In this document: positions 11,705 to 48,000 of the stretch, piece after piece
How positions within the stretch are numbered: position 1 is the first letter of the stretch
Layout of the letters: each line of letters opens with the position of its first letter
The notes under the pieces: generated by a model
The model's input: the letters and a program-made list of their open reading frames with translations, nothing else
The model's database searches: none
What the model was told of the DNA's origin: nothing
Virus record (IMG/VR): IMGVR_UViG_3300032284_000788
Coordinates: 1 to 51,302 of that record
From: a virus
Length of the DNA stretch: 51,302 bases
Direction: 5' to 3' (one strand)
Position numbers and translations under genes: made by a program

Positions 11705-12547
11705 ATGCAAAATCCTAATCCATTAGCCTCACATTTTAGACAACCAGCAGTTTACTTAAAATTGCCAAGCGGTGGAAGATATTGGACAAACAATAGTCTT
11801 AATCTTCCAGCTAACGGTGAAGTTGGAATTATGCCAATGACTGCTAAAGATGAAATTATGTTGCGTACACCTGACGCACTTATGAACGGTCAGAGTATTA
11901 TCGACGTAATTCAAAGTTGTTGTCCAAATATCGTAGATGCTTGGGGTATGCCAACAATTGATGTAGATGCAATATTGATTGCTATTCGTATTGCTACATA
12001 TGGCAATGAAATGGATATTGATAGTAAATGTCAGCACTGTGACCATGACAATAGACATAAACTTGAACTAGGTTCTATTTTATTAAAGATTAAATCTCCA
12101 GATTATAATCAAGTTTTAGTTATTGATGGGCTTAAAATTAAGTTTAAACCAATGAATTACATGCAGAGTAACAAAAACAATATCATTAATTTTGAAGAAC
12201 AGAAGCTAATTCAGGTAATAACAAACGATTCACTTGATGAACAAACACGTAAATCACAGTTTGATATGCATCTACAGAGAATAATTGACAGTAATATTAA
12301 AATGTTAACAATGGGAACAGAAAGTATTACTACTGATACAGGTGAAATAGTAACAGAACCACACTACATTGCAGAGTTTTATAATAACGCAACAAATAAA
12401 ATTATTAAAGCTGTGCAGGGAAAACTTCGTGAAATTGCAGAAGTATCAAACCTACCACCAGCACGTGTTCAGTGTGAAGCATGTGAAAAAGAATATAATG
12501 TGGGGGTTACATTTGATTACGCAAATTTTTTCGAGCCACTATCCTAA
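11705..12547 (+). CDS. 26: T4 gp26-type baseplate hub/tail assembly protein with zinc ribbon
   Basis: The protein has 280 residues. The N-terminal LPSGGRYW, IMPMTAKDEIMLRTPDALMN and IAIRIATYG segments are the signature of the T4 baseplate protein family (gp26 type). Two CxxC pairs, Cys109/Cys112 (CQHC) and Cys257/Cys260 (CEAC), probably bind one zinc ion; their spacing suggests a zinc ribbon interrupted by a helical domain. In T4, gp26 acts in hub assembly and gene 51 follows it. The last codons (AAT TTT TTC) contain a -1 slippery heptamer. Because the following ORF is open in the -1 frame back through this site, a longer fusion product of about 352 residues is possible. Confidence 0.8.
   Translation: MQNPNPLASHFRQPAVYLKLPSGGRYWTNNSLNLPANGEVGIMPMTAKDEIMLRTPDALMNGQSIIDVIQSCCPNIVDAWGMPTIDVDAILIAIRIATYGNEMDIDSKCQHCDHDNRHKLELGSILLKIKSPDYNQVLVIDGLKIKFKPMNYMQSNKNNIINFEEQKLIQVITNDSLDEQTRKSQFDMHLQRIIDSNIKMLTMGTESITTDTGEIVTEPHYIAEFYNNATNKIIKAVQGKLREIAEVSNLPPARVQCEACEKEYNVGVTFDYANFFEPLS
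12526..12532 (+). promoter_or_regulatory. Candidate -1 programmed ribosomal frameshift site
   Basis: T TTT TTC, read in the gp26 frame as F275-F276 (codons 12527-12532), is a canonical X XXY YYZ heptamer. It lies 12 nt before the gp26 stop (12545-12547). After a -1 shift the frame reads RATILTLTQDEL and joins Met1 of the next ORF (12568) without a stop. A second overlapping heptamer, A AAT TTT, is at 12523-12529. A weak stem, ctatcc (12539-12544) with ggatag (12579-12584), begins 6 nt downstream. Confidence 0.55.
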
Positions 12548-12762: not shown

Positions 12763-12770
12763 CATTATAT

Positions 12771-12788
12771 GATGACCTTACGGTCATC
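12771..12788. other. Perfect hairpin after the small ORF
   Basis: GATGACC (12771-12777), loop TTAC, GGTCATC (12782-12788): a 7-bp perfect stem 8 nt after the stop at 12762. No U-tract follows, so it may protect the mRNA 3' end or be a processing site rather than a terminator. Confidence 0.5.
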
Positions 12789-12836
12789 AGTTCGTTCGCT
12801 ATTCGCTCACTCACATCTTTTAATCAATCATAATCA

Positions 12837-12853
12837 GAAGGCTTTAGCCTTTT
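12837..12853 (+). terminator. Weak intrinsic terminator
   Basis: AAGGC (12838-12842), TTTA loop, GCCTT (12847-12851), followed by TTATATATT on the plus strand. It is a short stem with a modest U-tract, placed 75 nt after the gp26/gp51-like operon. On the minus strand the stem is followed by CTGATT, so it should act mainly on plus-strand transcripts. Confidence 0.5.
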
Positions 12854-12878
12854 ATATATTCATCTAGATTGACGTTTT

Positions 12879-13150
12879 CATATAGATTCCCTTAAGCAGG
12901 AAATCTATATGGATTACTGTCTTCATCTGAGTATCGGTAATCACACTAACAAAAAGAACTCTTATTGAGCGGGGCGGTTAGCCTGTACCCCCTTACGTCT
13001 AGTAGATTGTTCTAGCGGTTTCGTCAATTCCCTTGTTAGCGAAAATTGATCGATTGTAGTTGCTTATTCTCATAGCTACGTCATTTAGCCTATCGCAAGC
13101 CGTGCGGTGTCCAATACAGCAATGTCGGGGTGCTGACAACCTTCAGGGGT
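12879..13150. other. Gene-free, highly structured segment; candidate noncoding RNA
   Basis: There is no plausible ORF between 12763 and 13196. Within 12879-13150 I find a 10-bp perfect stem (12879-12888 with 12902-12911). A directly stacked 8-bp stem follows (12912-12919 with 12935-12942, one G-U pair). There is a long-range 7-bp pairing, CTAACAA (12946-12952) with TTGTTAG (13033-13039), enclosing a GGGG/CCCC hairpin (12971-12974 with 12988-12992). CAGCA/TGCTG (13117-13121 with 13131-13135) lies inside GGTGTC/GACAACC. The segment looks more GC-rich than its neighbours. No tRNA T-arm, tmRNA tag or group I core was recognised. The coding strand is undetermined. Confidence 0.45.
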
Positions 13151-13196
13151 ATTCTGATAAATGGACTATGCTGCCAGTGATGAGCCAAATGAGCCG

Positions 13197-14315
13197 TTAA
13201 AGGGTTCTATCTTTGATGTAATATTGTTTGCTAATTAATGTTTTATCAGCCAATTTGCCAGAGGAGCCAGAGTCGTATGTTCGAGCCAGTTGTAATCCAC
13301 TATTATATATGTTAAAAGCCAACGTGTCATTATTTTTTATGTGTTCGTAAATCTTAATATTATCAAGACTTGTTTCGTCGTTCAAATGAAAGTTTTTAAT
13401 ATATCCATTGATAGACCATATGTGTCCTGTTTTTAATTTTTCTCTGCCCATTGCCAAGTTCCATCTTTCATAAAAACTTATGTTACTTGCAAACTCGGCT
13501 CGTCCCTTTCCCTGCACATCGTGAACTAATTCTTCATCTAACTCTGGTAATGAATTAAACCAATCAACTACCATATGGCATTGCTTGATATGAAGTTCTG
13601 GCAATTCATTGCTAAAATAGAAGTTTTCTTGGTTGGCACCAATATAATCTACTGCAACGTCCACCATGAATCCATACCACTTACCATCACGTAGTAGCAC
13701 TTTGGGTTTATCTACACCCATAATATTACCACGATTTGATATGTTTTTGCTAGTTAATAAGAAATCATCCATGATATTTGTTGCAAAATATCGACTTGTT
13801 TTTGTTATCTTTAATCCAGAACCTGGATGGAATACCCAATCTGAATCTTGATTCTCATAAAACTTCAGTAGAACTTTATAATCTATTCTTACAACGTTTA
13901 TTTTTAAGTCTGGATAGTATAACTTCTTAACTAATTCTGCATGATTGATTGCGATTTCAACTTCAGGGTCGTTGAAAAAATCTCTCTTATCATAGATTAA
14001 TATCTCATCTAATAGAATATTATTGTCAATGAATGCTTTTAATATAGTATAGCTATCATACCCGCCACTATACCACAGTGCGATATAGGGATATTTGTCT
14101 CGTATTTGTTGGCACCGTATCTTCAACAGTGTTTTCCAACTGTCTTTTGGTTCATCAGTCCAATCGGTATTGTCCCACGTATCTTCCATCCAATGAAACT
14201 TTATCAGGGATAAATCACCACGTGCCTTATGAACAGCATCAACTTTACTGTGCGTTTTGATACCATTGACAGTAAAAAACGTATCTGTGTTATTATAGGG
14301 TTTAAACTTAAGCAT
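13197..14315 (-). CDS. PP-loop ATP-pyrophosphatase (asparagine synthetase-like C-domain)
   Basis: The protein has 372 residues. IALWYSGGYDSYTILKAF contains the PP-loop motif SGGYDS at residues 83-88, which binds ATP pyrophosphate in N-type enzymes that adenylate a carboxyl or carbonyl group (asparagine synthetase, QueC, TilS and relatives). No N-terminal glutaminase domain (Cys2 nucleophile) is present. The following strands (LLDEILIYDKRDFFNDPEVE) resemble the asparagine synthetase-type fold. It is the last gene of the transporter/oxygenase operon, 10 nt after the 2OG gene. Substrate unknown. It could amidate or ligate a small molecule, or modify a nucleotide or protein; no Zn motif of QueC was seen. 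Confidence 0.65.
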   Translation of the reverse strand: MLKFKPYNNTDTFFTVNGIKTHSKVDAVHKARGDLSLIKFHWMEDTWDNTDWTDEPKDSWKTLLKIRCQQIRDKYPYIALWYSGGYDSYTILKAFIDNNILLDEILIYDKRDFFNDPEVEIAINHAELVKKLYYPDLKINVVRIDYKVLLKFYENQDSDWVFHPGSGLKITKTSRYFATNIMDDFLLTSKNISNRGNIMGVDKPKVLLRDGKWYGFMVDVAVDYIGANQENFYFSNELPELHIKQCHMVVDWFNSLPELDEELVHDVQGKGRAEFASNISFYERWNLAMGREKLKTGHIWSINGYIKNFHLNDETSLDNIKIYEHIKNNDTLAFNIYNSGLQLARTYDSGSSGKLADKTLISKQYYIKDRTL

Positions 14316-14325
14316 TGAATTGCGG

Positions 14326-14925
14326 TTATTCTATCCCTAATCCACGTAGGCTATCAAGTCCAACTTGTATACTGACACGACGACTATTCAGATTACGAAC
14401 ACCATGCATGACACGAACATTAAGCAAACACCATGTTCTTGGTGGAATACTGATACTATCAAGTTCAGTTAGTTTGCTATGGTCATTGCAACGTGCAGCT
14501 TTTTCACGTATGATAGTCTGACCGTCTTCACGATAGAACACTGTTCTATTATTTGGTCCACCATCCTCAATGACGTAGAGCAATGCGTATTCTCGTGCAC
14601 GGTCTACGTGTGCGCCGCACGTATCATGCTCATCATCGGCCTTGATTGCACTAATTCTCACATGTGCTACATCAACATCAGTGATATTTTCATATGCCCA
14701 ACGTTTTAATTCCTCATCTACGTGCCATGCCAGTGCAGGACGATTGCGTTTTTCTTTACCATCAACAATAATTTGTAGATTCTTAGTCATATTCCAATCA
14801 ATCTGAATCCTATCAGGAGAATGTTGGAAGTTTTCCTCACTATCAATGCTGCCATAGGCAAGCTGAATGAGTTCCTCTGGAATGTGTGGCAGTTCAGGTA
14901 ATAATTTATAATACCAATCGGTCAT
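14326..14925 (-). CDS. 2-oxoglutarate/Fe(II)-dependent oxygenase
   Basis: The protein has 199 residues. The facial triad H-x-D...H is visible as His106-x-Asp108 (GAHVDRAREY) and His174 (RVMHGVRNL). Arg183-x-Ser185 (RRVSIQV) is the expected 2-oxoglutarate-binding RxS. The family hydroxylates or oxidatively cleaves small molecules, proteins or nucleic acids. Its ATG overlaps the permease stop (ATGA) and AAGGAA precedes it, so it is translationally coupled to the importer. The arrangement binding protein-ATPase-permease-oxygenase copies the tauABCD order. However, the protein is shorter than TauD (about 280 aa) and looks more like the prolyl-hydroxylase-like oxygenases common in marine phages. 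Substrate not determined. Confidence 0.75.
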   Translation of the reverse strand: MTDWYYKLLPELPHIPEELIQLAYGSIDSEENFQHSPDRIQIDWNMTKNLQIIVDGKEKRNRPALAWHVDEELKRWAYENITDVDVAHVRISAIKADDEHDTCGAHVDRAREYALLYVIEDGGPNNRTVFYREDGQTIIREKAARCNDHSKLTELDSISIPPRTWCLLNVRVMHGVRNLNSRRVSIQVGLDSLRGLGIE

Positions 14926-15674
14926 TTTAATTCCTTTAATACATTGAATAAACTGTTGATGGCAACGCCTGTCACTGCTATTACTATTAATATAACATAC
15001 ATTACATCAACATCTAATTTGTTTTTAACGTCTATTAGGTAACTACCTAATCCAAAATATCCACCAATAGCACCATATGCTATCTCTAGTGTGATAAGTG
15101 TTCGCCATATGTAGGTCCACGCAACACTGTTTAACGAGAACATCGTAGGTGCGGCTGCTGGCAAGTATACATGAATAAATGTCTTCCAATATCCCCAACG
15201 TAGGTTGTGAATATGCTTGCTCCATGTCAGCCTAACAGTGTCTATGGCAGCAAGTGTTTGATAACTCATGAACCAATACACAGATAATACCATAACAATA
15301 AGCATGGTTGTTTTACTCAGCCCAAAGAATAGTGTAACAAATGGTATCATTGCAAAGCTGGGTAGTGGCATAAAAAATGCACAGTATCGCTCAAATACTG
15401 CACGAACTGGCTTAGATAGTAAACATAGTGATACGGTTATACTAACTGCAAGTATACTCAGTGCCCATGCTTCTACTAATGTTATTAGGGTATGATAGTA
15501 TGTTTCCCAAAAGATTTCTTTCTGGAATACACCATAAGCAGCAGTTATAACTGACCAAAGACTTGGAAATATAAGAGATTCATTGGTGATTGTATAAGAT
15601 AATTGCCAAAAGACTGCCAATAGAACAATGGCAATACTATTAATTACCCAGTTCTTTGATAAAAGATTTCTCAT
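14922..15674 (-). CDS. ABC transporter permease, NitT/TauT (SsuC/TauC) type
   Basis: The inner-membrane protein has 250 residues and about six hydrophobic segments, the first at residues 10-30 (WVINSIAIVLLAVFWQLSY). The cytoplasmic EAA-type loop that docks on the ATPase is seen as HNLRWGYWKTFIHVYLPAAA near 155-175. Length and topology fit SsuC/TauC/ThiX-type permeases, which work as homodimers. AAGGAA precedes the ATG. The start lies inside the end of the ATPase gene (35-nt overlap). It is intact, with no frameshift. Confidence 0.9.
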   Translation of the reverse strand: MRNLLSKNWVINSIAIVLLAVFWQLSYTITNESLIFPSLWSVITAAYGVFQKEIFWETYYHTLITLVEAWALSILAVSITVSLCLLSKPVRAVFERYCAFFMPLPSFAMIPFVTLFFGLSKTTMLIVMVLSVYWFMSYQTLAAIDTVRLTWSKHIHNLRWGYWKTFIHVYLPAAAPTMFSLNSVAWTYIWRTLITLEIAYGAIGGYFGLGSYLIDVKNKLDVDVMYVILIVIAVTGVAINSLFNVLKELK

Positions 15675-16233
15675 TTATGTTCCTTGGCATCGCCTTTAGT
15701 CCCCATGCATCTAGTAATGATATCTCATCTCCTACTAACTTTGCTTCATTTAGGTCATGTGTTACCCAAATACTAGATAACCCTAACTCTTGTACTTTCT
15801 TTTTGAAATCACGTGCGACCTTGCGGCGTATTACTAGGTCAAGTCCACTTAGCGGTTCATCACATAGCAATACTTTAGCACCGCTGCACATGGCACGAAT
15901 AAGTGTAAACCGTTGACGTTGACCACCACTAACATCGTTAGGTTTATGGTCTAAAAGGTCATGTAGTTCCCACTCACAAACCATAGCAGTATAATCTTGC
16001 TTGCATACTAGGTCTAGGTTTTTACGAACACTATACCACGGCAGCAACTGATGACTATCTTGAAACACAGTAAAACTACTGGCATATTCAGCAACAGTAG
16101 CTAGTAAACTAGTCTTACCAACGCCGCTGTTGCCCATAATAACTGTGACCTGTCCACGTGGAACACTCATACTGATGGGAGAGAATAACTCTCTCCCACC
16201 TGCACGAACTGTAAGATTATCAATGCTTAGCAT
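15640..16233 (-). CDS. ABC transporter ATP-binding protein, NitT/TauT (SsuB/TauB) type
   Basis: The protein has 197 residues with every ATPase motif in order: Walker A GNSGVGKT (34-41), Q-loop Gln58 (VFQDSHQLLPW), signature VSGGQ (101-105), Walker B VLLCDE (121-126), D-loop SGLD and switch His159 (WVTHD). It is short for TauB/SsuB (about 250 aa), lacking most of the C-terminal extension, but should be catalytically competent. The gene overlaps the end of the binding-protein gene by 14 nt and has no strong ribosome site of its own, so coupled translation is likely. It would power import through the adjacent permease. Confidence 0.92.
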   Translation of the reverse strand: MLSIDNLTVRAGGRELFSPISMSVPRGQVTVIMGNSGVGKTSLLATVAEYASSFTVFQDSHQLLPWYSVRKNLDLVCKQDYTAMVCEWELHDLLDHKPNDVSGGQRQRFTLIRAMCSGAKVLLCDEPLSGLDLVIRRKVARDFKKKVQELGLSSIWVTHDLNEAKLVGDEISLLDAWGLKAMPRNINEKSFIKELGN

Positions 16234-17194
16234 GATAGGTCATCTCGCTGTCAGGAAGACTGCTATTTGGACCTTCAATCATTCCTGTTGCATACATTAG
16301 CTTTAGCGTAGCGTATGATGGAACAAGCGTGGTGATATAGGAATCGTTATTTTCCTTCTTCATCTTTGCAACTTCTTCGGCAGTGACATTGGTTAGACCA
16401 TCACGCTTAATAAAATCTTCAAGTGTAGGAATAGGATTCTTGTTGTATTCTTCAATTGCTAGCTTCTCTGCTTCAAGTAGTGCAGCAACTAACTTTGGAT
16501 TAGCATCTGCCCACTTAGCGGTAGTGTAAATTGAATTAGCAAATCCGTAGACTTTCTTGTTGTCTGGACGTGCTACAATGTGTGCCTTGCCACTGTTAAC
16601 AAGTTGGTTTTGGTATGGTGAACCAATAATACCACAATCAACTGTTGGTTTATCTGCACTATGTAGTGCAAATGCTTGGTCACGTGGTACGATTACGATA
16701 TTACTATTAAGTTTTTCGCTTTCTTTTGGTCCATATGCAGCAATTGAATACTGACGAAGCATCATATGGTCACCACTATTAAGACCCTTGATAGTAATCT
16801 TTGTGTCTGGCTTAATATCTGCCATTGTCTTGATATTTGGATTGCTACATACCAACCACATATCAAATGTTTCGGCACCAGCCAATAGTTTTACTTTACT
16901 TGGGTCTTTGTTCCAAGCATATGCAAAGCTACTAACCCCGCCATAGATAACATCTACGTTACCAGCTAGCATTTCTTGTACAGCCACTGGGTCTTCTTGG
17001 ATATCTACAAAGCTAATCTTTAGGTCTTTAATACCATGCTTTTCAGCAATCTTTGGTAGAATATCAGTCATCTTATACAGTAGTGGCTCGGTTGTAGTAT
17101 ACTTAAGATGACGATTAAACTTAATTTCAGTTGCGTTAGCAACCGTGGTTACAGCTAAAATAACTGCAATAGTCGATAATATTCTGTTAAACAT
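16220..17194 (-). CDS. Periplasmic substrate-binding protein, NitT/TauT/NMT1 type
   Basis: The start is ATG 17194 (MFNRILSTIAVILAV), preceded by AAGGAG at ideal spacing. A longer frame from 17212 would begin upstream of that site. Residues 1-21 are a Sec signal peptide ending in VANA before TEIKF. The mature domain (about 300 residues) has the TauA/SsuA/NMT1 pattern: AGNVDVIYGGVSSFAYAWN, then LLAGAETFDMWLVCSNP, then a second lobe with DCGIIGSPYQNQLV. The family captures taurine, alkanesulfonates, nitrate or thiamine-precursor pyrimidines for the cognate importer; ligand specificity cannot be read here. It has no Cys lipobox, so it would be soluble in the periplasm. Confidence 0.9.
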   Translation of the reverse strand: MFNRILSTIAVILAVTTVANATEIKFNRHLKYTTTEPLLYKMTDILPKIAEKHGIKDLKISFVDIQEDPVAVQEMLAGNVDVIYGGVSSFAYAWNKDPSKVKLLAGAETFDMWLVCSNPNIKTMADIKPDTKITIKGLNSGDHMMLRQYSIAAYGPKESEKLNSNIVIVPRDQAFALHSADKPTVDCGIIGSPYQNQLVNSGKAHIVARPDNKKVYGFANSIYTTAKWADANPKLVAALLEAEKLAIEEYNKNPIPTLEDFIKRDGLTNVTAEEVAKMKKENNDSYITTLVPSYATLKLMYATGMIEGPNSSLPDSEMTYHAKH

Positions 17195-17212
17195 GTGTAT
17201 TCTCCTTCTCAT

Positions 17213-17241
17213 AATATAACAGAGTTATTGTAAAATAACAA
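17213..17241 (-). promoter_or_regulatory. Sigma-70-like promoter of the transporter operon
   Basis: On the minus strand TTGTTA (17241-17236) and TATATT (17218-17213) are separated by exactly 17 bp. Transcription would start near 17206, a few bases before AAGGAG and ATG 17194. The spacer contains ACAAT facing ATTGT (attgttattttacaat), a small inverted repeat that could be an operator. It is a host-type promoter, unlike the NATAAATA boxes near structural genes, which suggests early or host-controlled expression. Confidence 0.55.
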
Positions 17242-17370: not shown

Positions 17371-17862
17371 TTATGCACACCGTTTAGCAACCGCATCTTT
17401 ATTAAGTTTCCAAAAAGTATCGTACTCCATTATTTCCCAATCTTTATAGGTCATATGATTGGCAAGTTCAAACTTTTCATGTGCCTGAACTGCGATATAT
17501 TTGCCTTTACGATTGAACTTCATAATAAGAATATTGAAATCTGCCTCATCTGCGGCTTGCATTAACTGGTCTAACCAACTATCAAGCTGCTTTACACTGC
17601 CATCGAAAAGTTGATGAAATGGGAAATCGGCATAGCTTTTACATTCTGCATTAAACTTAGGGAAACTTTGACCAGGAATAATATCGCCCTTAAAAGAACG
17701 AATCTGACCCTCATGTAGGAATTGCTTACGCTTAGTATTACTTCCTCCCACGTATGCACCACTCCCAGGCGCTCTAATAAATGTCTCGTTATAAATGGAA
17801 GTAAGATGTTTTGCAACATCTCGCTCCCAACTATTACCTTTGTTTTTACTTTTACTTGTCAT
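17371..17862 (-). CDS. Putative PD-(D/E)xK nuclease (Holliday-junction-resolvase-like)
   Basis: The protein has 163 residues. KGNSWERDVAKHL (Glu13) near the N-terminus, then GDIIPGQ, then FNAECKSY give the E...D...ExK constellation of restriction-endonuclease-fold nucleases. The RAPGSGAYVGG segment resembles phage resolvase or RecB-like enzymes. Its ATG overlaps the radical SAM stop codon (TAATG), with AAAGG upstream. As the last gene of the gp47-gp46 operon it could process recombination or replication intermediates. The specific substrate (Holliday junction, flap or host DNA) is not shown by the sequence. Confidence 0.6.
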   Translation of the reverse strand: MTSKSKNKGNSWERDVAKHLTSIYNETFIRAPGSGAYVGGSNTKRKQFLHEGQIRSFKGDIIPGQSFPKFNAECKSYADFPFHQLFDGSVKQLDSWLDQLMQAADEADFNILIMKFNRKGKYIAVQAHEKFELANHMTYKDWEIMEYDTFWKLNKDAVAKRCA

Positions 17863-19277
17863 TAATATGCCTTTTTCGAAAGTTCTTCGATGAATTGTAG
17901 ATAAGAATGGCTTCTTGGCATCTTATATCCTAATTTTTGAGCAATTTCTTGTAATTCTAATCTTCGCAATATTCTTGTCTTTAATTTATTATCGGGAGTT
18001 TCCCAATCAAATATATTAGTCGATGAATCATCCAATATAGAAATATCTAATTCTTCCAGCATGTGCATCATTGGTGTATTATGCAATAGATGCATAGTAA
18101 ACCCTAATCCTATCATAAAAATAGTATTACTATAAACATATTTTTGATATTTGTATAAACTTTTTATGTTTTCTTGATGATCTTCTTCTGTTTCCGTAGG
18201 ATACCCAGTAATCATTAGAAATATATTAGGTATACTCCAGTATGCAGACTGTTCCAAATGATAATCTATATCAGCGTTAGAAAATTTCTTTTTCATATGA
18301 TTTCTTACAGATTCACTAAAACTTTCAATACCGATTATTATTTGATTACATCCAGCATAATGCATTACTTCGTAGTGTTCTGGTGGCATTTGTTTTTCAG
18401 GCCGACAAATAAATTGTCCGCTGTATGTTACATCCGCAAATGTGCTATCTGTTGCTTTAAGGTGTGCCAATTTTTGATTAAACTTATAAAAGTTTGTGAT
18501 GTTACCATTAATCAAACTATCAGTAAACTCAAAGTGTGTAGTGCCAGTTTCCAATACGTGTTTTTTAATTTCATCAATTAGCAGGTCTGCGTCACGATAT
18601 CTAAACTGAGGCCAATAGTTTGCTACATCACAAAATGTGCATTTTCTTACACAACCACGACTGCCAGTAATAAAAACCTTATTCCAACTATAATTACTTT
18701 TAGGAAATCGTGCATAATCTGGTAGAGGATAATTGTTTAAATCTCTATCATTGCTAAACTGAACAATCTTTGTAGCTGTTTGGTTTTTTAAAATCATATC
18801 AAAGCTAATTTCACCATCGCCTAACACTATATGATCTACAGATTTTTCAATTGATTTATAATATGGTTCATTATTGATTACAGATTCTAGTCCAATGCCG
18901 CCCACTATTATAGGTATATCAAAGTTTTCAAGGCATTTAATTAGTATGTTAGCAGAAATTATGCTTTCAAATGTAAAAACACTGACAGCAATAAACTTTG
19001 TTTTTTCTGTGATTGCATTAGTTAAGTTAGTTAGAAATACTGTTTTGATTTTTTCTTCTAAATCTAATTCTAATTCTGGGATATTATTACCAAGAGCAGA
19101 TTTTTTATCTAGATTGTCCCAGTCTGTGCTATCAAGTTCTCTTACTAACTCTTGGTTTAAATCTAATATTACTGGTTCAAAATTATTTTCTATGCAAATT
19201 GCACTGAGTATGCCCAGCGCAGCAGGTGGATTATTCAAATCTTGTTTTGGTATACTGATAAGAAGGATATTATCCAT
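17862..19277 (-). CDS. B12-binding-type radical SAM protein
   Basis: The protein has 471 residues. The N-terminal 160 residues have the cobalamin-binding-like Rossmann pattern (NPPAALGILSAICIENNFEP, then IIVGGIGLESVI and VLGDGEISFD), though no clear DxHxxG is seen. The radical SAM cluster motif C-x3-C-x2-C is Cys209, Cys213 and Cys216 (GCVRKCTFCDVANYWPQFRY). IIIGIESFSESVRNHMKKKF and ITGYPTETEEDH are typical later strands of the barrel. Such enzymes methylate, cyclise or rearrange unactivated carbons. The target is unknown. It overlaps the upstream 128-aa ORF by 8 nt and the nuclease gene by 1 nt, so the three are co-translated. Confidence 0.85.
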   Translation of the reverse strand: MDNILLISIPKQDLNNPPAALGILSAICIENNFEPVILDLNQELVRELDSTDWDNLDKKSALGNNIPELELDLEEKIKTVFLTNLTNAITEKTKFIAVSVFTFESIISANILIKCLENFDIPIIVGGIGLESVINNEPYYKSIEKSVDHIVLGDGEISFDMILKNQTATKIVQFSNDRDLNNYPLPDYARFPKSNYSWNKVFITGSRGCVRKCTFCDVANYWPQFRYRDADLLIDEIKKHVLETGTTHFEFTDSLINGNITNFYKFNQKLAHLKATDSTFADVTYSGQFICRPEKQMPPEHYEVMHYAGCNQIIIGIESFSESVRNHMKKKFSNADIDYHLEQSAYWSIPNIFLMITGYPTETEEDHQENIKSLYKYQKYVYSNTIFMIGLGFTMHLLHNTPMMHMLEELDISILDDSSTNIFDWETPDNKLKTRILRRLELQEIAQKLGYKMPRSHSYLQFIEELSKKAY

Positions 19278-36077: not shown

Positions 36078-39000
36078 ATGGCAAAGCGTAAAAGTCTTGA
36101 TTTTCTACCATCAGTTTTTAAAACACCGTCTAATCAACGTTTTTTAAATGCAACGATAGATCAATTAATTCAAGAACCATCACTAAAAAAGATTTATGGG
36201 TATATTGGTCAGCAAGATCAAAGTTCTGTATTTCAACCTACTGATTACTACATCAGTGAATCAGACAAATACGCACAGTTTTATCAGCTTGAGCCAGGTG
36301 TTGTTATTAAGAAAAGAGATTTTAATAGTAACACATATAAAGTGCACAATGTTTATGGTTATCAAGATTTATTGAATCAATTTGTCAATGACGGCGGATT
36401 AAATAATAATCACGACAGACTCTTCAAGAACACTTATTATAACTACAATGGATTTGTTGACTTAGATAAACTAACAAATTATCGTCAGTACTACTGGGCA
36501 CCAAATGGTCCATTAACTGTTGACGTTACTGCTGGTGGTGTTCCACTTGAAAAAGAGTTTTTCATACACCGCACTAGTTATATTTCAAACAATCAAACAG
36601 AAATCCAAAGTGCAAGTCTAGGTAAAACTGGATATACTATCGATGGGTATAACAAGGGTGTCAACCCAACGTTAATATTGCGCCGTGGTGGTCAATATAC
36701 ATTTAATGTTGGACAAGCTGGTCATAAGTTTTGGATTCAAACTGAAACTGGAACTAGCGGAGTAAGCAGCTTACAGTCAAACATAAGCACTCGTGATATT
36801 CTTGGCGTTCAAAATAATGGTTCTGATGTTGGAAATGTTACTTTCAGTGTTCCATTAAAGACAGCACAAGATTCATTGATTAACTTGCCTAGCATACAAG
36901 ACATTGACATGATTGTTCATGCTCCGTATGATGCTATTCAAGGTCAAAATTATGATAATTTTATTAAATCATTTAGCTTAGATGGTGTTCGTAGTTTTGA
37001 TACTAAACTTATTAATATTATTTGGCCAAATGATTCGACGTGGGGCGATGTTCCGCTAACTCAACGTGGCGGTATCTGGCAAGTTACGGTTGATAATAAT
37101 GAAATTATACCTGGTAATCTAGCAGCAACTACTAATGCAACATTTAATATTAATAGTAATTCTATAATCGTAGATAATGTAACAAATATTGGAATAGGCC
37201 AATTTATAGTATGTTCAACTATTTCTGGTATACCATATGGCACAGTTGTAACTGCTATAAACGGAAATGCAATCACGCTCAGTAATGTTGTTAATATTAA
37301 TAATCTTACTGCGCCTGTATATTTTTACAATCCAGTTCAAAATACAAATTACAGAAATATGAAATTGCAATATGTTTCTGATTGGAACAATGGCTATAAA
37401 GTTTTCGTAAAACAGGGTGACCAATATGGACACACATACTCATATAAAGACGCATTTGGACAAATTGTAAAATATCCAACAATTACTGCGCCACTTGATA
37501 CTTTATATTATGTTGATGCAGACAACCCATTAATTTATGGCGAAATCCGCATTGTTGACCCTGATCCAGCAAGTGTTTTAAACGTTGACAATATTATTGG
37601 ACGTGATTATTACACAAGCCCCAACGGCGTTGAGTTTACCAGTGGTTTAAAAATCAAGTTTACTGGCATTATTAATCCTTCAACATACCAAGATCGTGAA
37701 TACGTTGTTGAAAATGTTGGTAAAAGTATTCGACTGATAGCTTGGGATGATCTCGCTACTCCAGAAAATATTAATCAAAATCTAACAGAACTTTTCAGTG
37801 CAGATAATATTGGATACGACACCGAATTATTTGATCAATCGCTTAATGCACCAGAACAAAAAGACTACATAACCATCAATCGAAGCAGTGTTGATGGAAA
37901 TGCGTGGAGTCGTAACAATCGTTGGTTCCATCGTGATGTACTGCAATATGCAGCAACATTTACTGGTCAAACTTATATTTTTGATAGTAACCTTCAAGCA
38001 AAACGTCCTATCGTAGAGTTTTTCCCAGACCTTAAACTTTTTAATTATGGCACAAATTATGCAGGAAGTGTAAGTGCAGTTGATAGTATTACTACAAATG
38101 CATTCTTGCAGGTAGAAGGCCAAAATGAATATGCAATTAAAGTTTCTACTCACGCAAAAGATGTAGAAAATTATACCAGTGATGGGGTGCTATTACAAAA
38201 TGGGCTTACTGTTATCTTTACAAACGATGCTGATCCAATTGTAAGAAGTACAATATATCAGGTTGAAACTATTCGCCCTCGCACCGATGCAGCAACATAT
38301 TATCCAACTACTACTCAAAGTTCTTCTATCGGAAGTAATACATTATACATTTCTGACCTAACAGGATTACAGGTTGGCATGAAAGTTGCAGGGACAAATA
38401 TTGCTGCTGGAACTGTTATCACATCTTTTAATTACAATGATATCAATAGTAAAACTGACCATGGTGGTATTGTTTATATTAATAACTCGGTTCTTGCAAC
38501 TGTTGCACAGGGTACAGTTATAACTTTTGATAATACTACACTAGACCCAGTTACTCGTGCATATGCTAATTTTTATGCTTCAACTTATAAAACATCTGTT
38601 ACTAATAGCAATGCCCTTTATATTAATAATATCAATAGTTTAACTATTGGTCAAGCTGTATTCGGCGCTGGTATCCCAACTAATACTACTATTACCTCAG
38701 TAGATAAAACAAATGGCATCATTTATATAAGCAATGATGTTACACAAGATATACCAGCATTCACAAGCATTGGTTTCAACAATGGTGCAACGCAGGTTCA
38801 TTTAGTTCCAGTAAAGACTGTAAGCAATGGTGATAACGTATTAATAACAAATGGTATAACTAAAAAAGGTTATATGTATTATTACGTTGACGGTGTGTGG
38901 TATAGTGCACAACAACGAGATAGTCGTCCACAATTTCCACTATTTGATATGGTAGATAATAATGGTATTAGTTTTACCGATACCGCACGTTATCCAAGTA

Positions 39001-42000
39001 CTACGTTTTCTGGTAGTAAACTTTTTGGCTATGCTATTGGAAATGGAAAGCGTGACAGCGAATTAGGATTTCCACTACAATATAAGACAATTGGTAATAT
39101 AGGTGACATTGTTTTCCAAAACTATTATTCAACGGACACCTTTACATATAGTGAAGTTACAACTCCTGTTAATATTGGATATGTTCCTGTAATTGTTGGA
39201 TGGAATGACTATACATTTGCAAATGGTTGGAGCCGTGTAAATGATAAAAGCAAACAATATATTTGTTTAACGTTTACTGCATCAACATCTACATATAATA
39301 ATTTTGATCTAGGAGTAGTTTACGAAAACAGTTATTTTGAAAATAATCTATTTGTTTACGTAAATGGTGTTCTTCAAGATAAGAAGGTTTATACTCTCAA
39401 AATTAATGAAACAACGAGTATATTGTCATTTAATAATGATTTAGTAGTCAATGACAGATTGTTTATAAAGATTTATGGCACAAGTTCAGCATATAAACAA
39501 ACTTATACTATGCCTAGAAATATAACCAATAATAGTGATAATACTGATTTTACTACTATTACTCTTGGTCAGATTCGCAATCATGTTATTGAACTCGGAG
39601 ATAATACACTAGATTTGGTTGGATTACCTGCTGGTGAAAATAATTTTAGAGACATTGACTACACTAAAATTGGTGGAAAACTAATTCAACATAGTGCGAG
39701 TGCACGACCTGCCGCACTTATGTTCTCTAATCCAGACGTTGATCCTATTCGTGCACTAACGTTAGCAAGTGAACAATATCGTGTGTTTAAAGCACAGTTA
39801 TTTGATTTAATAAGCAATCGCCAATTTACTAATTCGTCAAACTATCGTGAATGTTTAGACATTATACTCAATGAGTTTGCTCAAACATCAAATAGTGGAA
39901 GTAATTTTTATTACAGTGATATGATCGCTGGTGGAAAAAATTATATTCTAAACACATATACTATCCAAGATACGTCTTACAAAACATTTAATACAGTGAC
40001 GAGCTATGATAATGTTCTTAGCACATACAAATCAGTATTAATTTATCTCAATAACATGCTATTGATAAATGGCATTGATTATACACTCAGTGGGTTAACA
40101 ATAACATTGTCGAATAACCTAAAGGTTAATCGTCTTGACACACTAAGTGTGTATGAGTATAGTAGCACACTCGGATGCAATATTCCATCTACACCAAGTA
40201 AACTTGGCCTGTATCCAAAGTTTGTTCCAGAAATTACAGTTGATGACACCTACTTAGATTCTCAAAATGTTATTATTGGTCATGACGGAAGTGTAATTAT
40301 CGCATGGGGTGACTATCGTGATAATATTCTTCTAGAATATGAAAAAAGAGTCTATAATAATATTTCGATTGAATATGATAATAATTCAGATTACAGCTTA
40401 GTAAGTGTACAACCTGGCGCATTTCGTAGCACTGGATATGATCTTAACGAATGGACACAGCTATTAAGTTCTAGCTATCTCTCGTGGAGTGGTGTGAACA
40501 ACATAGATATTTTCACTAATACTACTACAAACGACAACCTTTTCAGTTTCAATTACAGTCAGGGAACTGATCGTGTATTTGGCAAAAACGTTCCTGGTTA
40601 CTGGCGTGGTATATACAATTATTTTTATGATACAGATCGTCCACATACAAATCCATGGGAAATGCTTGGATTTACAGTGAAGCCAACTTGGTGGGAATAT
40701 CGTTATGGACCAGCGCCATACAGTAGTGAAAACTTAACTCTCTGGAATGATCTTGAGCTTGGTCTCATTTATAATGGATCACCTAAAAAGAGTTACATCA
40801 ATTCCAAGTATGCACGTCCAGGTTTAAGTAAAATTATACCAGTTGATGAGCATGGTGTACTATTGCCACCAATACTAGCAACACTTGAATCTTATGATGT
40901 TAATACTGCTAGCGATAACTGGCGTATTGGTGATTGCTCTCCGCAGGAAACTTCATGGCGTAGAAGTAGCATGTACCCATTTGCAGTGCAAATTGCTTGG
41001 TGTCTTGCAAGACCTGCAGAATATTGTGCACTAAAATATAATACACGTGACGTTCAATATAATGCAAAATTAGATCAGATACTAAACGTAAAAACTAATA
41101 GTCGTGTATTTAATTATAGCGTTACGGGCGATTCAGAATATATTCCAGGTCTAAACGTATTCATTCGTGAATTATTAGTTTATAATAATTTAGATGTGAA
41201 TGCAAATTGGATTGAGGTTGCTGCTAACAGCACGTTTAATTTAGTATACAAAATGTCTGGTTATAGCGATAAGAGTTATTTGACAATCGTCGCCGATCAA
41301 GTAAGTCCACAGAGTACAAATGTCAGTGTTCTTGTGCCACAAGAAAACTACCAGCTTAAAGTAACAAAGAGTGCACCAGTAGCACGTGCTGTTTATAGTG
41401 CAGTCATTGTTCAAAAAACTACTACGGGATATCAAATAAATGGATTTGATAAATCTCGTCCATATTTCTTAACTATCCCTAGTCGTGTCAACGCAAATAA
41501 TTATGGCATCACTGTTGGAAACGACACTGGTGTAATATATCGTGACGCAGAAGATACTGTTACTAGTTACCCATATGGTACTATATTCAACAACAAACAA
41601 CAAGTTGTAGATTTTTTAGTAAGCTATGGCCGTTATCTAGAGGGTCAGGGTTTCGTTTTCAACACAGTGCTAGCAGATAACGTAACTGTTTCCGATTGGA
41701 CACTTTCAGTAAAAGAGTTTTTATTTTGGGAACAGCAACAGTGGGGCAACGATACCGTCATTGGACTGACACCTGCTGGGACAAGTCTGACATATAATAA
41801 TGTGTATGGCGTAGTTGATACAATTTCTAACGATCATAATTACACTAAAGTTGTTGACAGTGATGGAACAACACTTAACGGAAATGATTACCGTGTTTAT
41901 CGTGAAGACAACACATTTAGTATTGAGTTAAAAAACAATCAAAAAGGTATACACATATTAGACTTGTCCATTGTTCAGTACGAACACACTATTATATTTG

Positions 42001-45000
42001 ATAACGTAACTGTTTTCAATGATATACTTTATGATGAGCAAATTGGTAGTCGCCAATTCCGTCTACGCCTTGATGGTGCAAAAACACAAGGGTGGAATGG
42101 AAGTCTATATGCTCCAGGATTTATTATCAATTACAGTGATATTTCAAATTGGAATAGTTATACTGATTATTATAAGGGAGATATAGTTCTTTATAAAAAA
42201 CAATACTATTCGGCGCAAAACTTCATACCAGGAACTGCTAAGTTTAACACAAATGACTGGTATAAAATAAATGGCGATTTACTAAAGAAACAACTTATTC
42301 CAAATATGGCAAGTGGGGCTGCACAGTTTGTAGATTTCTACAATCCAGATTCAGCAGACCTTAATACTGCTGCAGATATTCAAAGCAAACACGCAGTTGG
42401 ATTCCAAGACCGTCAGTATTTCACCGATCTTGGGCTTGATCGTGTAAGCCAATACAAGTTCTACCTTGGCATGATTAATCAAAAAGGTTCACAGGCCGTA
42501 ATCAATGCTTTCTTGCGTAATCAACAAAATCGTATTGATAGTGACATTCGTTTAAATGAACAGTGGGCAGTTAAACTTGGAAGTTATGGTGGAACAGAAC
42601 ACACTGATAAGTTAGAGTTTAACATTGGCGGCACTACCACCATTAATAACCAATACTTGTTTGAGTTTATTGACAATCAAGACCCACGCAGTCCAAAATA
42701 TAATAGTATTAAGCAGAGTGATTTGCTAATCTCTCCAAGAAATTATACTACAGATATATTTGCACAGACTGATTATAATAAGCAAATTGTTGCAACTACT
42801 GGTCCAGTGTTGATTGCAAATACTAATGCTACGGTGTATGACATTAGTAAGATTTATAATATTAGTAAAGTAAATGCTTATCTTGGTGAAAGTAGTACTA
42901 TATGGATTGCAGCAGACGGTGATAATCAGTGGGGTGTATATCGCCTATCTCAAACTGACAAGATATTTGTTACCAATGTGCATCAATCGTCTCCAAGTGA
43001 ATTAACATTTACAACTAATATACCACATCATCTTTCTAAACTTGATTATATCATGCTTAAGAATGCAAAGATTACGACTTCAAGTCGTAGTACTGGCATA
43101 CTTGACATTGGTGGATTCTACCGTGTCAGTGATGTAAGTGGAAATACATTCAGTGTTAAAATTACACAAGATACTACTATTGCAAGTGGTACTTTAAATG
43201 CAGTATTACTAAAACTAATTAACATTCGTTTTGATACTGTTCGTGATTTTGGTGCATTTACACCAGCACGTGGTTGGCAAAATAATGAAATTGTTTATAT
43301 TGACAACGGGCCAAATGGTTACGATGTTAAGAAAAACACTGACAGTTGGTCATACTTTGAAACTCGCAGTCCAGTGTTCAGTACTCCTGCAGATCAATTT
43401 GGAACTAGTATTAGCATAAGCAATAAGCAAAATCTTGCAGTTGTTGGCGCTACAGGTAAAGGATCAACTGGTCAAGTATATGTATTTGAAAGTGAGCAGG
43501 ATAATACTTGGCATGAGTTTATTAGACTTACACCAGACAGCCGTGACGTGGGATTTGGTAGTACAGTTCAATTCAATGACAATAATATTGTTGCTATTTC
43601 TGCACCTAATACTAATAATAAAGGTTCAGTATATATTGCAAGTGTCAGTAGTCAACGACTTGCTCTTGATCAAGTAATACATTATGACAATCTGTATGTG
43701 ACTACCAGTATTGCATCTAGTAATAGCAACGTTTACGTGAGTGGCACAGGCCAATCTCTATCTAACTTTGCTATCGGTATGACAGTTGTCGGTGCTGGTA
43801 TTCCAAACGGAACAAAAATTGCCAATCTAAAAACTACTGGTTCAACATACAACATTATTGGATTAACAAAGCCAGTGAACGTTTCTGGTTCAGAGTCAAT
43901 TGCAATATATCCAAATCTTGTTCCAGGAAGTACATTTGGCACCAGTGTATGCACTAGCAAAGATGGAAATTGGCTATTTGTTGGGGAACCAACTGTTGGT
44001 AAAGTATTTGTTTACAAATATAAAAAGGTTGATACAGATACGAATACCGTTATCGGTGACAATAACAACACGATATTTGGTTTTCCAAATAGTGCTCAGC
44101 TTAAGGGATTAAGTCATCACGATGTAAGTGTTCGTGTAAACGGTGTTCTAAAGATGGCAGACCTTGACTATATTAAAACACCTAGCCAAGATAGTATTAC
44201 CTTTGTAACTGCACCTGCCCTTGGTGCAAATGTTTCAGTAACGTATGAGAATTATTTTCAAGAAGTTACTAGCTTTACAACCGATGATCCAGAAGTAATT
44301 GGATTTGGATCAAGCGTAAGTTGTAGTGCAGATGGTCGTCATGTTGTTGTAGGTGCCAAATCAAGCAATGCTACATTAGACGTTACATATACTAATGCTG
44401 GTAAAGCATATATCTTTGAACGTGCCATAGAAAACTTTGTGGCAAATGGACAAGCAAACTCATTTACTACAACAACAACATTCAATAACCCAAGTATTAC
44501 AATAGATGGTGTTGCGGCTTCTGGAACTTTCTATAATGCAAACAACACTGTTGTATTGAATAGCTACCCAATTTCTGATAGCATTGTTGCAGTAGAAACT
44601 AACGCATTTATTCCAACTAAAATATTGACATCTGATTACGGTCAAACTGATTCTAATTTTGGAGCAACTGTAAAGTTGTGTCCAATAGATTGCAGTGTAT
44701 ATGTATCTGCCACTGGCTGGAATTACAACAGTAAAAAGAATGGTGCAGTATTTCGTTTTGTAAATGTTCCTAAACTATATGGTGTTGCAACAGGAACAGT
44801 TGCTGGATTTACTATGCCAGCAGGATTAAAGTTGTACATCAATGATTTCTTAGTGACGTTTATTGGCGGCGGCGCACAACAGTGCGTAAACGACATCAAC
44901 CGTGTAAAAATACCTGGTGTAACCGCATCTCTGTTGCCAACTGGTGAAATACAAATAGTAAGCGACATTAATATCGCTGATAATAAACTACGTTTCCGTA

Positions 45001-48000
45001 ACGGTTACGGTAACCCACTCAATTCATTAGGTATTGATCCTTGGCAACTTACACAGAAGATTTTTAGTCCAATTCTTCAAGATACAGAAGAGTTTGGTAA
45101 TAAAATTGACGTAAGTCCAGATGCAGGAACTCTTGTTATCGGTGCAACTTTAAGTAATAATAAAACAGTTACTACAATTGATGGTGGCAAAACTTCATTT
45201 GATGCAAAAACTGTCAGATTTGTTGATATTGTCTATCGTAGCGGTGCTGCACATGTTTATGAATATCAGAGCAGTGCTACTGAAACCCCAGACGATCAGG
45301 GAACATTTGTATTTGCAAAACTGTTGAGTCAGAATACTATATCTAGCTATGATAAGTTTGCTACTGGCGTTGCTATTAGTAAAAACTTTATCTTAATTGG
45401 TGCACCTAACGGAAAAGTTTTAGGTAACCCTGCTGGTGTAATGCACGTTTATTACAACAAAAATGGTGATCGAGTTTGGAATACTATACGTGAGGGCGGA
45501 ACTAATTACGACAGTCGAATGGCCGAACGTGTTTACCTATACAACTCAACCACAAGTAAATTGATCGCAGATTTACCAATAATTGATTTGCAACATAATA
45601 GACTTCCTGGCAGTGCTGAAAGTTATATCGATTACACAATCAATTATGACCCTGCAGTTTATAATAAAGTTCCAACAACAGTTAGCTTCAGTTATGATAC
45701 AAAAAATAATTGGGGAAAAGAAAAAGTAGGAACACTGTGGTGGGATACTAATACTATAAAGTATTATGATAATAGTCAAGGAACTACATTAGACCAGTTT
45801 AATAACTGGGGTCTTGCATTCCCAGGAAGTAAAGTATCCATATACGAATGGATTGAAAGTAATCTTTCACCTAAAGACTATGCTGCAGTTAATCCAAATC
45901 ATTTACCACTTTATACAGTAAATGATGTATACAGTGTTCGCTCAGAAATAGATCAATCAACTGGTCTAGCCGTATCTAAGTATTATTTTTGGATACGCAA
46001 CAGTGTTTCTGTGCCAGCGGACAATTCACGTCCTAGTGCATTTGAATTGCAGAATAATATATCTTCTCCACGTAACTTTGGAGAACCATTTGCAGCAATT
46101 ATTAATAAAAAAGCAATTGCAATTTATAATTGCCAAACGCTGGTTGGAGATGACACAAATCTAGTAATTGAATATAAGAATCAGATAAAGCCACAGTTGA
46201 CACACACTGAATGGACAATGTTCGATGATGGAACTGATTTAGGCGTTGCTGAAGATTTCATCAACAAGATTCGTGATAGTATGGCACTGCAGGATGGTAG
46301 CGGACGCACTGTTCCTGATCCTAAACTACCAATTGGACAACGTTATGGAACAAGTATACGTCCACGTCAAAGTGTTTTCTCTGCACCATTCGCTGCAAGA
46401 AAACTATTTGTTTCTGAGTTAAATTACATTTGCTCTGTCTACCCAATGGCTCTAGTAAGAAGCCAATCAATTAAAGAACTAAACAATGCTGAGCCAGAAC
46501 CAACTGTAGATTTATATGATATAAAGGTTGATACCAACATAGAATTGGGATACCTTGACAAAATATTATATAAGGCAAATACACGAGTATTGGTAAAAAA
46601 TGATACATCAATCGGTGGTGGTTGGGCATTATATTACCTTAATGTAAATGTTGCAAATGAAAATATAAGAACTTGGAATCTATATCGTGTTCAAAAATAT
46701 GACATTACAAAGTATTGGAACTATACAGACTGGTTTAGTACAAAATATAATGCAAAAATACCGCCAACTTATACTGTTGACACAGAAAGCCAGATTAGTA
46801 GCTTGTCTCTTAACATCAATGACATAATTTATGTTAAAAATAGTAATGAAGGTGGATGGAAACTTGTTCTAGTTAACTCTGATAATTTAGAGTTATTGGC
46901 ACAACAAAATGCTACTATATCTTTCAATAGTAAACTATACAGTCAATCTGCATCTGGTCAAGGATTTGAATCTAGTGCATTTGAAATAACTGGTTACGCA
47001 ACCGATTGTAACCTAGAGTTTGCAGCAATATTTGATATTGTTACTAATTCAATGTTAACAAATGAATATCGCACAGAGTTTAAAACCCTTATTAAGCTCA
47101 TGATTGACACTATTGCAAATCAACATCTGCAGACAGATTGGTTGATGAAAACTAGCTTTATTGACCTATATCACCGTGTTCGTGGTCTTGATCCGCTGCC
47201 CGTGTATCTACCTCAACCAGAAAAGGTTGTGACTGATTTCTTTGCAGAAGTTAAACCATATCATACAAAGTTGAAGCAGTATGTTGCTAGATACGACAAC
47301 TCAAATAACGTTGACGTTGCAAATACAGGCGTATCAGATTTTGATCTACAGCCATATTATAATGCAGGTTTGAAAAAGTATCGCAGTCCACAACTTGGAA
47401 ATATATTAGATTCTGATCAGCTAGCAAATCAATCAATTTATCAACCATGGGTTAATCATCACACTTATCAGATTAACAGAATCGACATTTATAATGGTGG
47501 TAGCGGTTACACTGCTGCAACTACTGTTACGATTGTCGGAGATGGTAATGGTGCAACAGCTAAAGCACTTGTGCTAGGCGGAACAATTTATAGCATAATT
47601 ATTACAAATCCTGGATCTGGCTATACATATGCAACTGTTCAAATTCGTGGTCTTGGTCAAGGTGCAATGGCATATGCTATTTTAAATGATGGTCTTGTTA
47701 GAAATATTAATACTATTGTAAAGTTTGATCGCTATACATATTTTAATAATATACAAGATTGGTCACCAAATACTCACTATGCAATTGACACTGTAGTAGT
47801 AAACAATGCAGAACCGTATCGTGTAATTATTGATCACACCAGCGGCGACATATTTGATTTTGTAAAGTTTTTACCACTTATTGTAAAAGTATGGTATCCA
47901 AATACCGAGTACACTCAGTATGATATTATAATTTATAAGAACACTAGTTATATTGCAAATGCTAATTTTACTAGTAATACTGTATTTGACACCAATAATC

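Follow-up and report, generated by a model that had tools for sequence, protein, structure and literature searches.

The 51,302-base IMG/VR virus record analyzed in this study, called the window over its full length, carries a cassette of five genes on the minus strand at positions 13197-17212. The genes encode a periplasmic substrate-binding protein (SBP), an ABC ATPase, an ABC importer permease, a protein resembling 2-oxoglutarate (2OG)-Fe(II) oxygenases and a PP-loop protein. We consider it likely that a large T4-like phage encodes here a metabolic cassette for import and modification, with an exchangeable transporter. In the proposed mechanism, the SBP would bind a small organic solute (probably an anion) in the periplasm of its host, a Gram-negative bacterium. 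The phage-encoded ATPase and permease would pump this solute into the infected cell. By analogy to its superfamily the PP-loop protein may activate the solute in an ATP-dependent manner, and the 2OG oxygenase, by fold and motif, may catalyze a hydroxylation. The enzyme pair would either convert the solute itself or employ it in modifying a different molecule. In other phages the same pair would be fed by a TctA permease with its own SBP, and elsewhere the PP-loop gene is found with SBPs of the TctC or DctP type, sometimes with a phage porin. We infer these steps, the common pathway of enzymes and solute and a resulting benefit from the genes and their arrangement. The initial annotation had already suggested that a solute is imported and then processed by the adjacent enzymes; this is supported as the simplest reading, and the arrangement is conserved in related contigs.

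All five genes are intact and co-directional, overlapping by 14, 35 and 4 bp and then separated by a 10-bp gap, which confirms the initial description of these genes. The SBP gene (16220..17212) more likely starts at 17194, where an AAGGAG ribosome site precedes it and the translation begins with a clean signal peptide, MFNRILSTIAVILAVTTVANA, followed by TE. The protein is NMT1/SsuA-like: it weakly matches the Pfam NMT1 model PF09084 (9.4e-5; 22.8 bits, cut-off 20.5) and, far below the cut-off, the SsuA_fam model TIGR01728 (7.2e-10; 38.6 against 163.5). Its nearest bacterial relatives among 299 Pseudomonadota genomes are ~25% identical, and solved structures offered no template that could be used for this type of SBP. 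The ATPase (15640..16233; PF00005, ABC_tran, 3.1e-19) has the Walker A motif GNSGVGKTS, a Q-loop, the signature SGGQRQR, the Walker B motif LLCDEP and the H-loop TH, all of which are kept in 6 phage copies. The Tau/Ssu/SaoP-like permease (14922..15674; PF00528, BPD_transp_1, 1.7e-16) stays below the NCBIfam cut-offs (NF040733 2e-12, TauC model 8.4e-10) and is kept in the relatives. With a signal-peptide-bearing SBP, a BPD_transp_1 permease and an ATPase with Walker A/B, signature and H-loop encoded together, the importer is, judged by sequence, an ABC system of NMT1/Ssu type, though a distant one. That a lytic-type phage encodes a complete importer, which had been pointed out as unusual, was confirmed, and the importer is conserved in related contigs.

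The oxygenase-like protein (14326..14925) has no match in Pfam, NCBIfam or PHROG. Its residues H106, D108, H174 and R183 are invariant in 9 copies, forming the pattern of an HxD...H triad with a distal arginine. The AlphaFold model is confident (pLDDT 87.7), and its Foldseek matches (best E 2e-4, TM 0.4-0.5) are oxygenases with a double-stranded beta-helix, namely ribosomal and JmjC-type hydroxylases, AviO1 and prolyl hydroxylases. Triad, distal arginine and modeled fold place it in the 2OG-Fe(II) oxygenase superfamily, with a predicted enzymatic activity. TauD-family membership was ruled out, as there is no sequence relation to TauD: no match to PF02668 was obtained at E up to 1, the hhalign probability was 0.6% and the BLASTP E-value 2.4. 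An oxygenase-like HxD...H...R spacing without a Pfam match is also found in a recurrent protein of ~220-244 amino acids encoded next to PP-loop and TctC/TctA genes (L170:9213-9938, L155, L119, L283:5391-6053).

The PP-loop protein (13197..14315; motif SGGYDS) belongs to a large phage-borne family; with the deeper alignment, viral contigs yielded at least 404 relatives, in records of up to 374 kb. It has no Pfam, NCBIfam or PHROG match over the cut-off. SGG.DS, D102, KP and KQ are invariant over 13 diverse members. Of 24 large contigs bearing PP-loop genes, 9 carry a terminase. GenBank phages gave no match to the SBP, the oxygenase or two PP-loop queries, and the few matches to TctA, DctP or the permease lie in records that are unannotated or poorly described or that look bacterial. 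A first scan of bacterial genomes with the PP-loop protein was without match, and a second scan of 84,980 species genomes yielded one, a 3,156-base contig (L179) with the gene order PP-DctP-PP-PP. This contig, on which all genes are of the PP-loop or DctP kind, was binned in a Methylococcaceae metagenome-assembled genome; it probably stems from a large phage and was grouped with bacterial contigs, and its placement is therefore a possible hint at the host. On these searches, the PP-loop family appears nearly confined to phages.

The phage is T4-like, and its portal protein has its nearest relatives, ~50% identical, in jumbo phages, among them PA5oct and Atu_ph07. Searching viral contigs for the five-gene order revealed it at one syntenic site, the same phage locus, in 17 further IMG/VR contigs from many metagenomes (~10 after removal of near-copies; in two, the contig ends within the arrangement). 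Judging by IMG sample numbers, many of the 17 presumably come from bog or freshwater lakes. Identity to the window is ~76-90% for core genes (gp47, gp55, portal) and mostly 42-62% for the cassette genes. Two clade-mates have an empty site: in L030 (gp47 84%) and L036 (73%) the nuclease gene bordering the cassette is followed by the next small gene after 462 and 431 bp, respectively, compared with 4,608 bp in the window. In the closest pairs, dN/dS is ~0.05-0.08 for SBP, ATPase, permease and oxygenase and 0.085 in the best PP-loop pair. These values are similar to those of core genes, and the cassette genes are kept by selection. Cassettes of the window clade hold 1-3 oxygenases, one or two PP-loop genes and often an SDR. 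The locus therefore has the properties of an auxiliary metabolic cassette: metabolic genes in a genuine phage genome, flanked by syntenic phage genes and under purifying selection.

At the same locus, two contigs of the same clade (L033 and L037, gp47 78-79%) carry a PP-loop gene, a TctA permease gene (PF01970, 1.8e-56 and 4.5e-54), a gene for a secreted SBP-like protein and an oxygenase gene. Both enzymes of these contigs, the PP-loop protein and the oxygenase, are just ~23-32% identical to the window counterparts, and in the tree their PP-loops group with TctC/TctA-linked PP-loops and not with the window clade. Due to this low identity and the separate tree placement, we regard these genes as an altogether different cassette with the same kinds of components. 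This swap at one site is the strongest sign that transporter, PP-loop protein and oxygenase may work together. The PP-loops encoded beside the ABC importer form one clade (support 99/90), and transporter type tracks the PP-loop tree with 16 changes compared with 33 in shuffles (0/200). Since the same enzyme pair is combined elsewhere with TctA and its own SBP, and the PP-loop gene in still other phages with a TctC or DctP SBP, sometimes together with a porin, the transporter can be viewed as an exchangeable front end.

The linkage extends across phages. The SBPs linked to PP-loop genes are of TctC, DctP or NMT1 type, sometimes with TctA and a porin, and SBP genes are present at 27 of 37 dereplicated PP loci. 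Among genes within three of a PP gene, 53 of 248 encode SBPs, compared with 1 of 400 more than five genes away (Fisher 6e-23) and 0 of 820 genes in control loci of other T4-like phages; this ratio is inflated because the SBP models were trained on near neighbors. The curated Pfam TctC model matches in 21 of the 24 large PP-bearing contigs, TctA in 5. Three SBP-PP pairs each occur in L134 and L155. A 343.6 kb contig with a terminase (L281) has the order radical SAM, a 190-amino-acid protein, porin (PF13609, 6e-37), TctA, TctC-like SBP, PP-loop, oxygenase, SDR-like and oxygenase; L282 has porin-like, TctA, TctC, a 303-amino-acid protein and PP-loop; and L113 holds a porin, a TctC SBP, a PP-loop and three oxygenase-like genes. 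The SDRs of the window clade and of the PP/Tct group are only remotely alike (22%, E 0.009). Gram-negative porin genes (PF13609) lie beside TctA/TctC, oxygenase and PP-loop genes in large phage contigs (L281:5934-7118, L249:242-1426, L113:7351-8310). Directly before another PP-loop gene, L156:8631-9980 encodes a protein of 450 amino acids with ~12 predicted membrane segments and no Pfam match that by eye resembles a sodium:solute symporter (SSS); an amidohydrolase, a TctC and a DctP protein are encoded nearby.

Several observations weigh against import and modification by one cassette. The contigs analyzed are fragments. No SBP of the modeled types was found at 10 of the 37 dereplicated PP loci, and the PP-loop protein may therefore have a role of its own. 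In a simple test, a signal peptide was predicted for 37 of 47 TctC-type SBPs and for 0 of 33 DctP-like ones (e.g. L165:12192-13148, L130:11308-12279), which is a misfit with periplasmic capture; by sequence the latter are apparently cytoplasmic binding proteins. One PP-loop protein (L004:4193-5320) has SSGYDS in place of SGGYDS, which possibly affects ATP binding. No functional homolog was found for the PP-loop protein or the oxygenase. The AlphaFold model of the PP-loop protein, built on an alignment of 5 sequences, is poor (pLDDT 47), and its weak Foldseek matches to the cores of LarE, NadE, TtuA and AsnB are for this reason a lead only. Identity with QueC, AsnB, NadE or TilS was rejected, since profile comparison aligns only 19-57 columns around the motif. 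ATP-dependent activation is accordingly an analogy, because the motif alone aligns and the model is poor.

The main rival is that two unrelated cargos share an insertion site, the transporter feeding the host and the PP-loop and oxygenase proteins modifying a macromolecule such as tRNA, DNA or a ribosomal protein. Known PP-loop enzymes often act on tRNA or nucleobases, enzymes that oxidize ribosomes or nucleic acids are among the Foldseek relatives of the oxygenase, and some PP loci are without SBP. However, SBP and PP-loop genes are paired repeatedly within single genomes (three pairs each in L134 and L155), the transporter is exchanged while the enzyme pair is retained, and the PP-loop tree and transporter type are congruent. 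We therefore regard two unrelated cargos as unlikely.

The imported solute is probably a small organic anion, with carboxylate or sulfonate as the common denominator suggested by the sequences. TctC-type SBPs resemble Bug27 and terephthalate-binding proteins. In TRAP binding proteins a conserved arginine lies at the carboxylate site of the ligand, and 18 of 23 DctP-type proteins keep an arginine aligned with it. Six bacterial relatives of the window-type SBP are encoded in different surroundings: one adjoins a TauD gene, one a luciferase-type (SsuD-like) monooxygenase, and others BKACE or IlvD enzymes. In TauA, taurine is contacted by Gln30, Glu106, Thr132 and Asp205, and also by Trp176 (PMC6906117). 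At these sites the window-type SBPs have Lys, Arg or Glu for Gln30, Asn or Thr for Asp205, Ser, Ala or Gly for Thr132 and Asp or Glu for Glu106, and Trp176 is lost; the correspondence is approximate, with ~20-24% identity in the alignment.

A functional analog of Tau/Ssu, in which a sulfonate is imported and the oxygenase frees sulfite as sulfur source during infection, is a doubtful explanation, which we rank lower still. The order SBP, ATPase, permease, oxygenase mirrors tauABCD of Escherichia coli, SsuA is the family closest to the SBP, and two of the six bacterial SBP relatives stand beside TauD or an SsuD-like monooxygenase. Identities of the phage proteins are 29% for the ATPase (to TauB, 3.6e-24), 21-25% for the permease and 24% for the SBP (to SsuA; 23.5% over 319 amino acids by BLASTP). 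The likeness to Tau/Ssu noted in the initial annotation thus holds for a distant NMT1/Ssu-type importer and a tauABCD-like gene order but not for homology to Tau: the oxygenase is unrelated to TauD, and on an alignment of only ~20% identity the pocket residues Gln30, Asp205 and Trp176 are not conserved, the sulfonate-contact Gln being replaced by Lys, Arg or Glu. Other bacterial SBP relatives lie with carboxylate enzymes (BKACE, IlvD), and desulfonation would leave the PP-loop protein, the constant element, without a role. The phage cassette further differs from TauABCD/SsuABC by its PP-loop gene and by being phage-encoded.

That the SBPs and porins do not serve uptake but act, at the cell surface or in the periplasm, as decoys, receptors or sinks for metabolites is very improbable. 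Many PP-linked SBPs are without a nearby phage permease and the DctP-like ones without a signal peptide, but the window clade encodes a complete permease and ATPase, TctA permeases and TctB-TctA pairs occur elsewhere, and the ATPase motifs are intact under purifying selection. An assembly chimera of phage and bacterial DNA is in practice rejected by the same arrangement in 17 syntenic contigs from many metagenomes, by a uniform GC content (37.8% in the cassette, 37.1% in the rest of the window) and by the empty sites in clade-mates.

The import-and-modify cassette shares single components with several known systems. As in TctABC transporters, the cassettes of L033/L037 and L281/L282 use TctA (PF01970) with a secreted SBP, but TctB was not seen beside these phage TctA genes, and a PP-loop gene, an oxygenase gene and sometimes a porin gene are included in the operon, in phage genomes. 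With the PP-loop/N-type ATP pyrophosphatases (LarE, NadE, AsnB, QueC, TilS) the phage family shares the SGGxDS motif and, on a poor model, weak core-fold matches, but it aligns only at the P-loop region, has its own invariant KP/KQ and is nearly phage-confined. Transport-related genes have been described on phages before: SUP05 phage contigs carry one isolated tctA and a 2OG oxygenase (PMC4164917), and soil viral operational taxonomic units contain ABC transporter genes, several with drug-efflux domains (PMC10746233). While these cases and cyanophage pstS concern single genes or efflux-type domains, whole importers occur here with a conserved enzyme pair across many large phages. No prior description of such a module was found in the open-access literature searched, which is weak evidence since subscription journals were mostly outside its scope. 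Phage uptake genes are known in kind; what seems to be new is that complete, exchangeable importers go together with an enzyme family carried by phages.

On one side, the cassette is followed by a PDDEXK nuclease gene (17371..17862, minus strand; PF24608, 6.4e-28), which by synteny borders the cargo site in relatives, and by a B12-type radical-SAM gene (17862..19277, minus strand; PF04055, 3.6e-13); on the other side, a convergent gp26-like T4 baseplate gene (11705..12547, plus strand; PF12322, 7.9e-21) forms the opposite border. The T4-like setting named in the initial annotation was correct, but the gp46/47-like genes are not direct neighbors and lie beyond the nuclease and radical-SAM genes. 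The radical-SAM gene is variable cargo and possibly part of the import module; other radical-SAM genes occur in the gp46/gp47/PDDEXK neighborhood across the clade (L003:4263-5216; L006:5448-6338). A sigma-70-like promoter proposed upstream of the cassette did not hold up: the region has 16 such sites, compared with 21.4 expected in shuffles, and the named site scores 9/12. Between the convergent PP-loop and baseplate genes lies a 430-bp non-coding stretch (12763-13190) that contains short inverted repeats (TGATGACC...GGTCATCA). Searches for tRNAs and Rfam families gave no match here or elsewhere in the window. A single open frame of 4,811 amino acids (14.4 kb; 36078-50513, plus strand) takes up more than a quarter of the window.

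Beyond this locus, we tentatively put forward that large aquatic phages share a modular pathway, in which mostly phage-confined PP-loop enzymes and 2OG oxygenases would act on solutes from exchangeable uptake systems (ABC or TctA/TctC, with a DctP-like SBP, an SSS-like symporter and an outer-membrane porin in places). This would be a full viral route that starts at the cell exterior and ends with a novel product in the cytoplasm. Most metabolic genes of phages encode single host-like enzymes or isolated SBPs, whereas here complete inner-membrane importers, in places porins, stand beside a nearly phage-only enzyme family. If the proposal is true, these phages alter what the infected cell takes up from the water and produce their own compound or modification. 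The SBPs can be purified and offer a direct handle, as their ligands would reveal the chemistry of a viral family of at least 404 members that is so far without assigned function.

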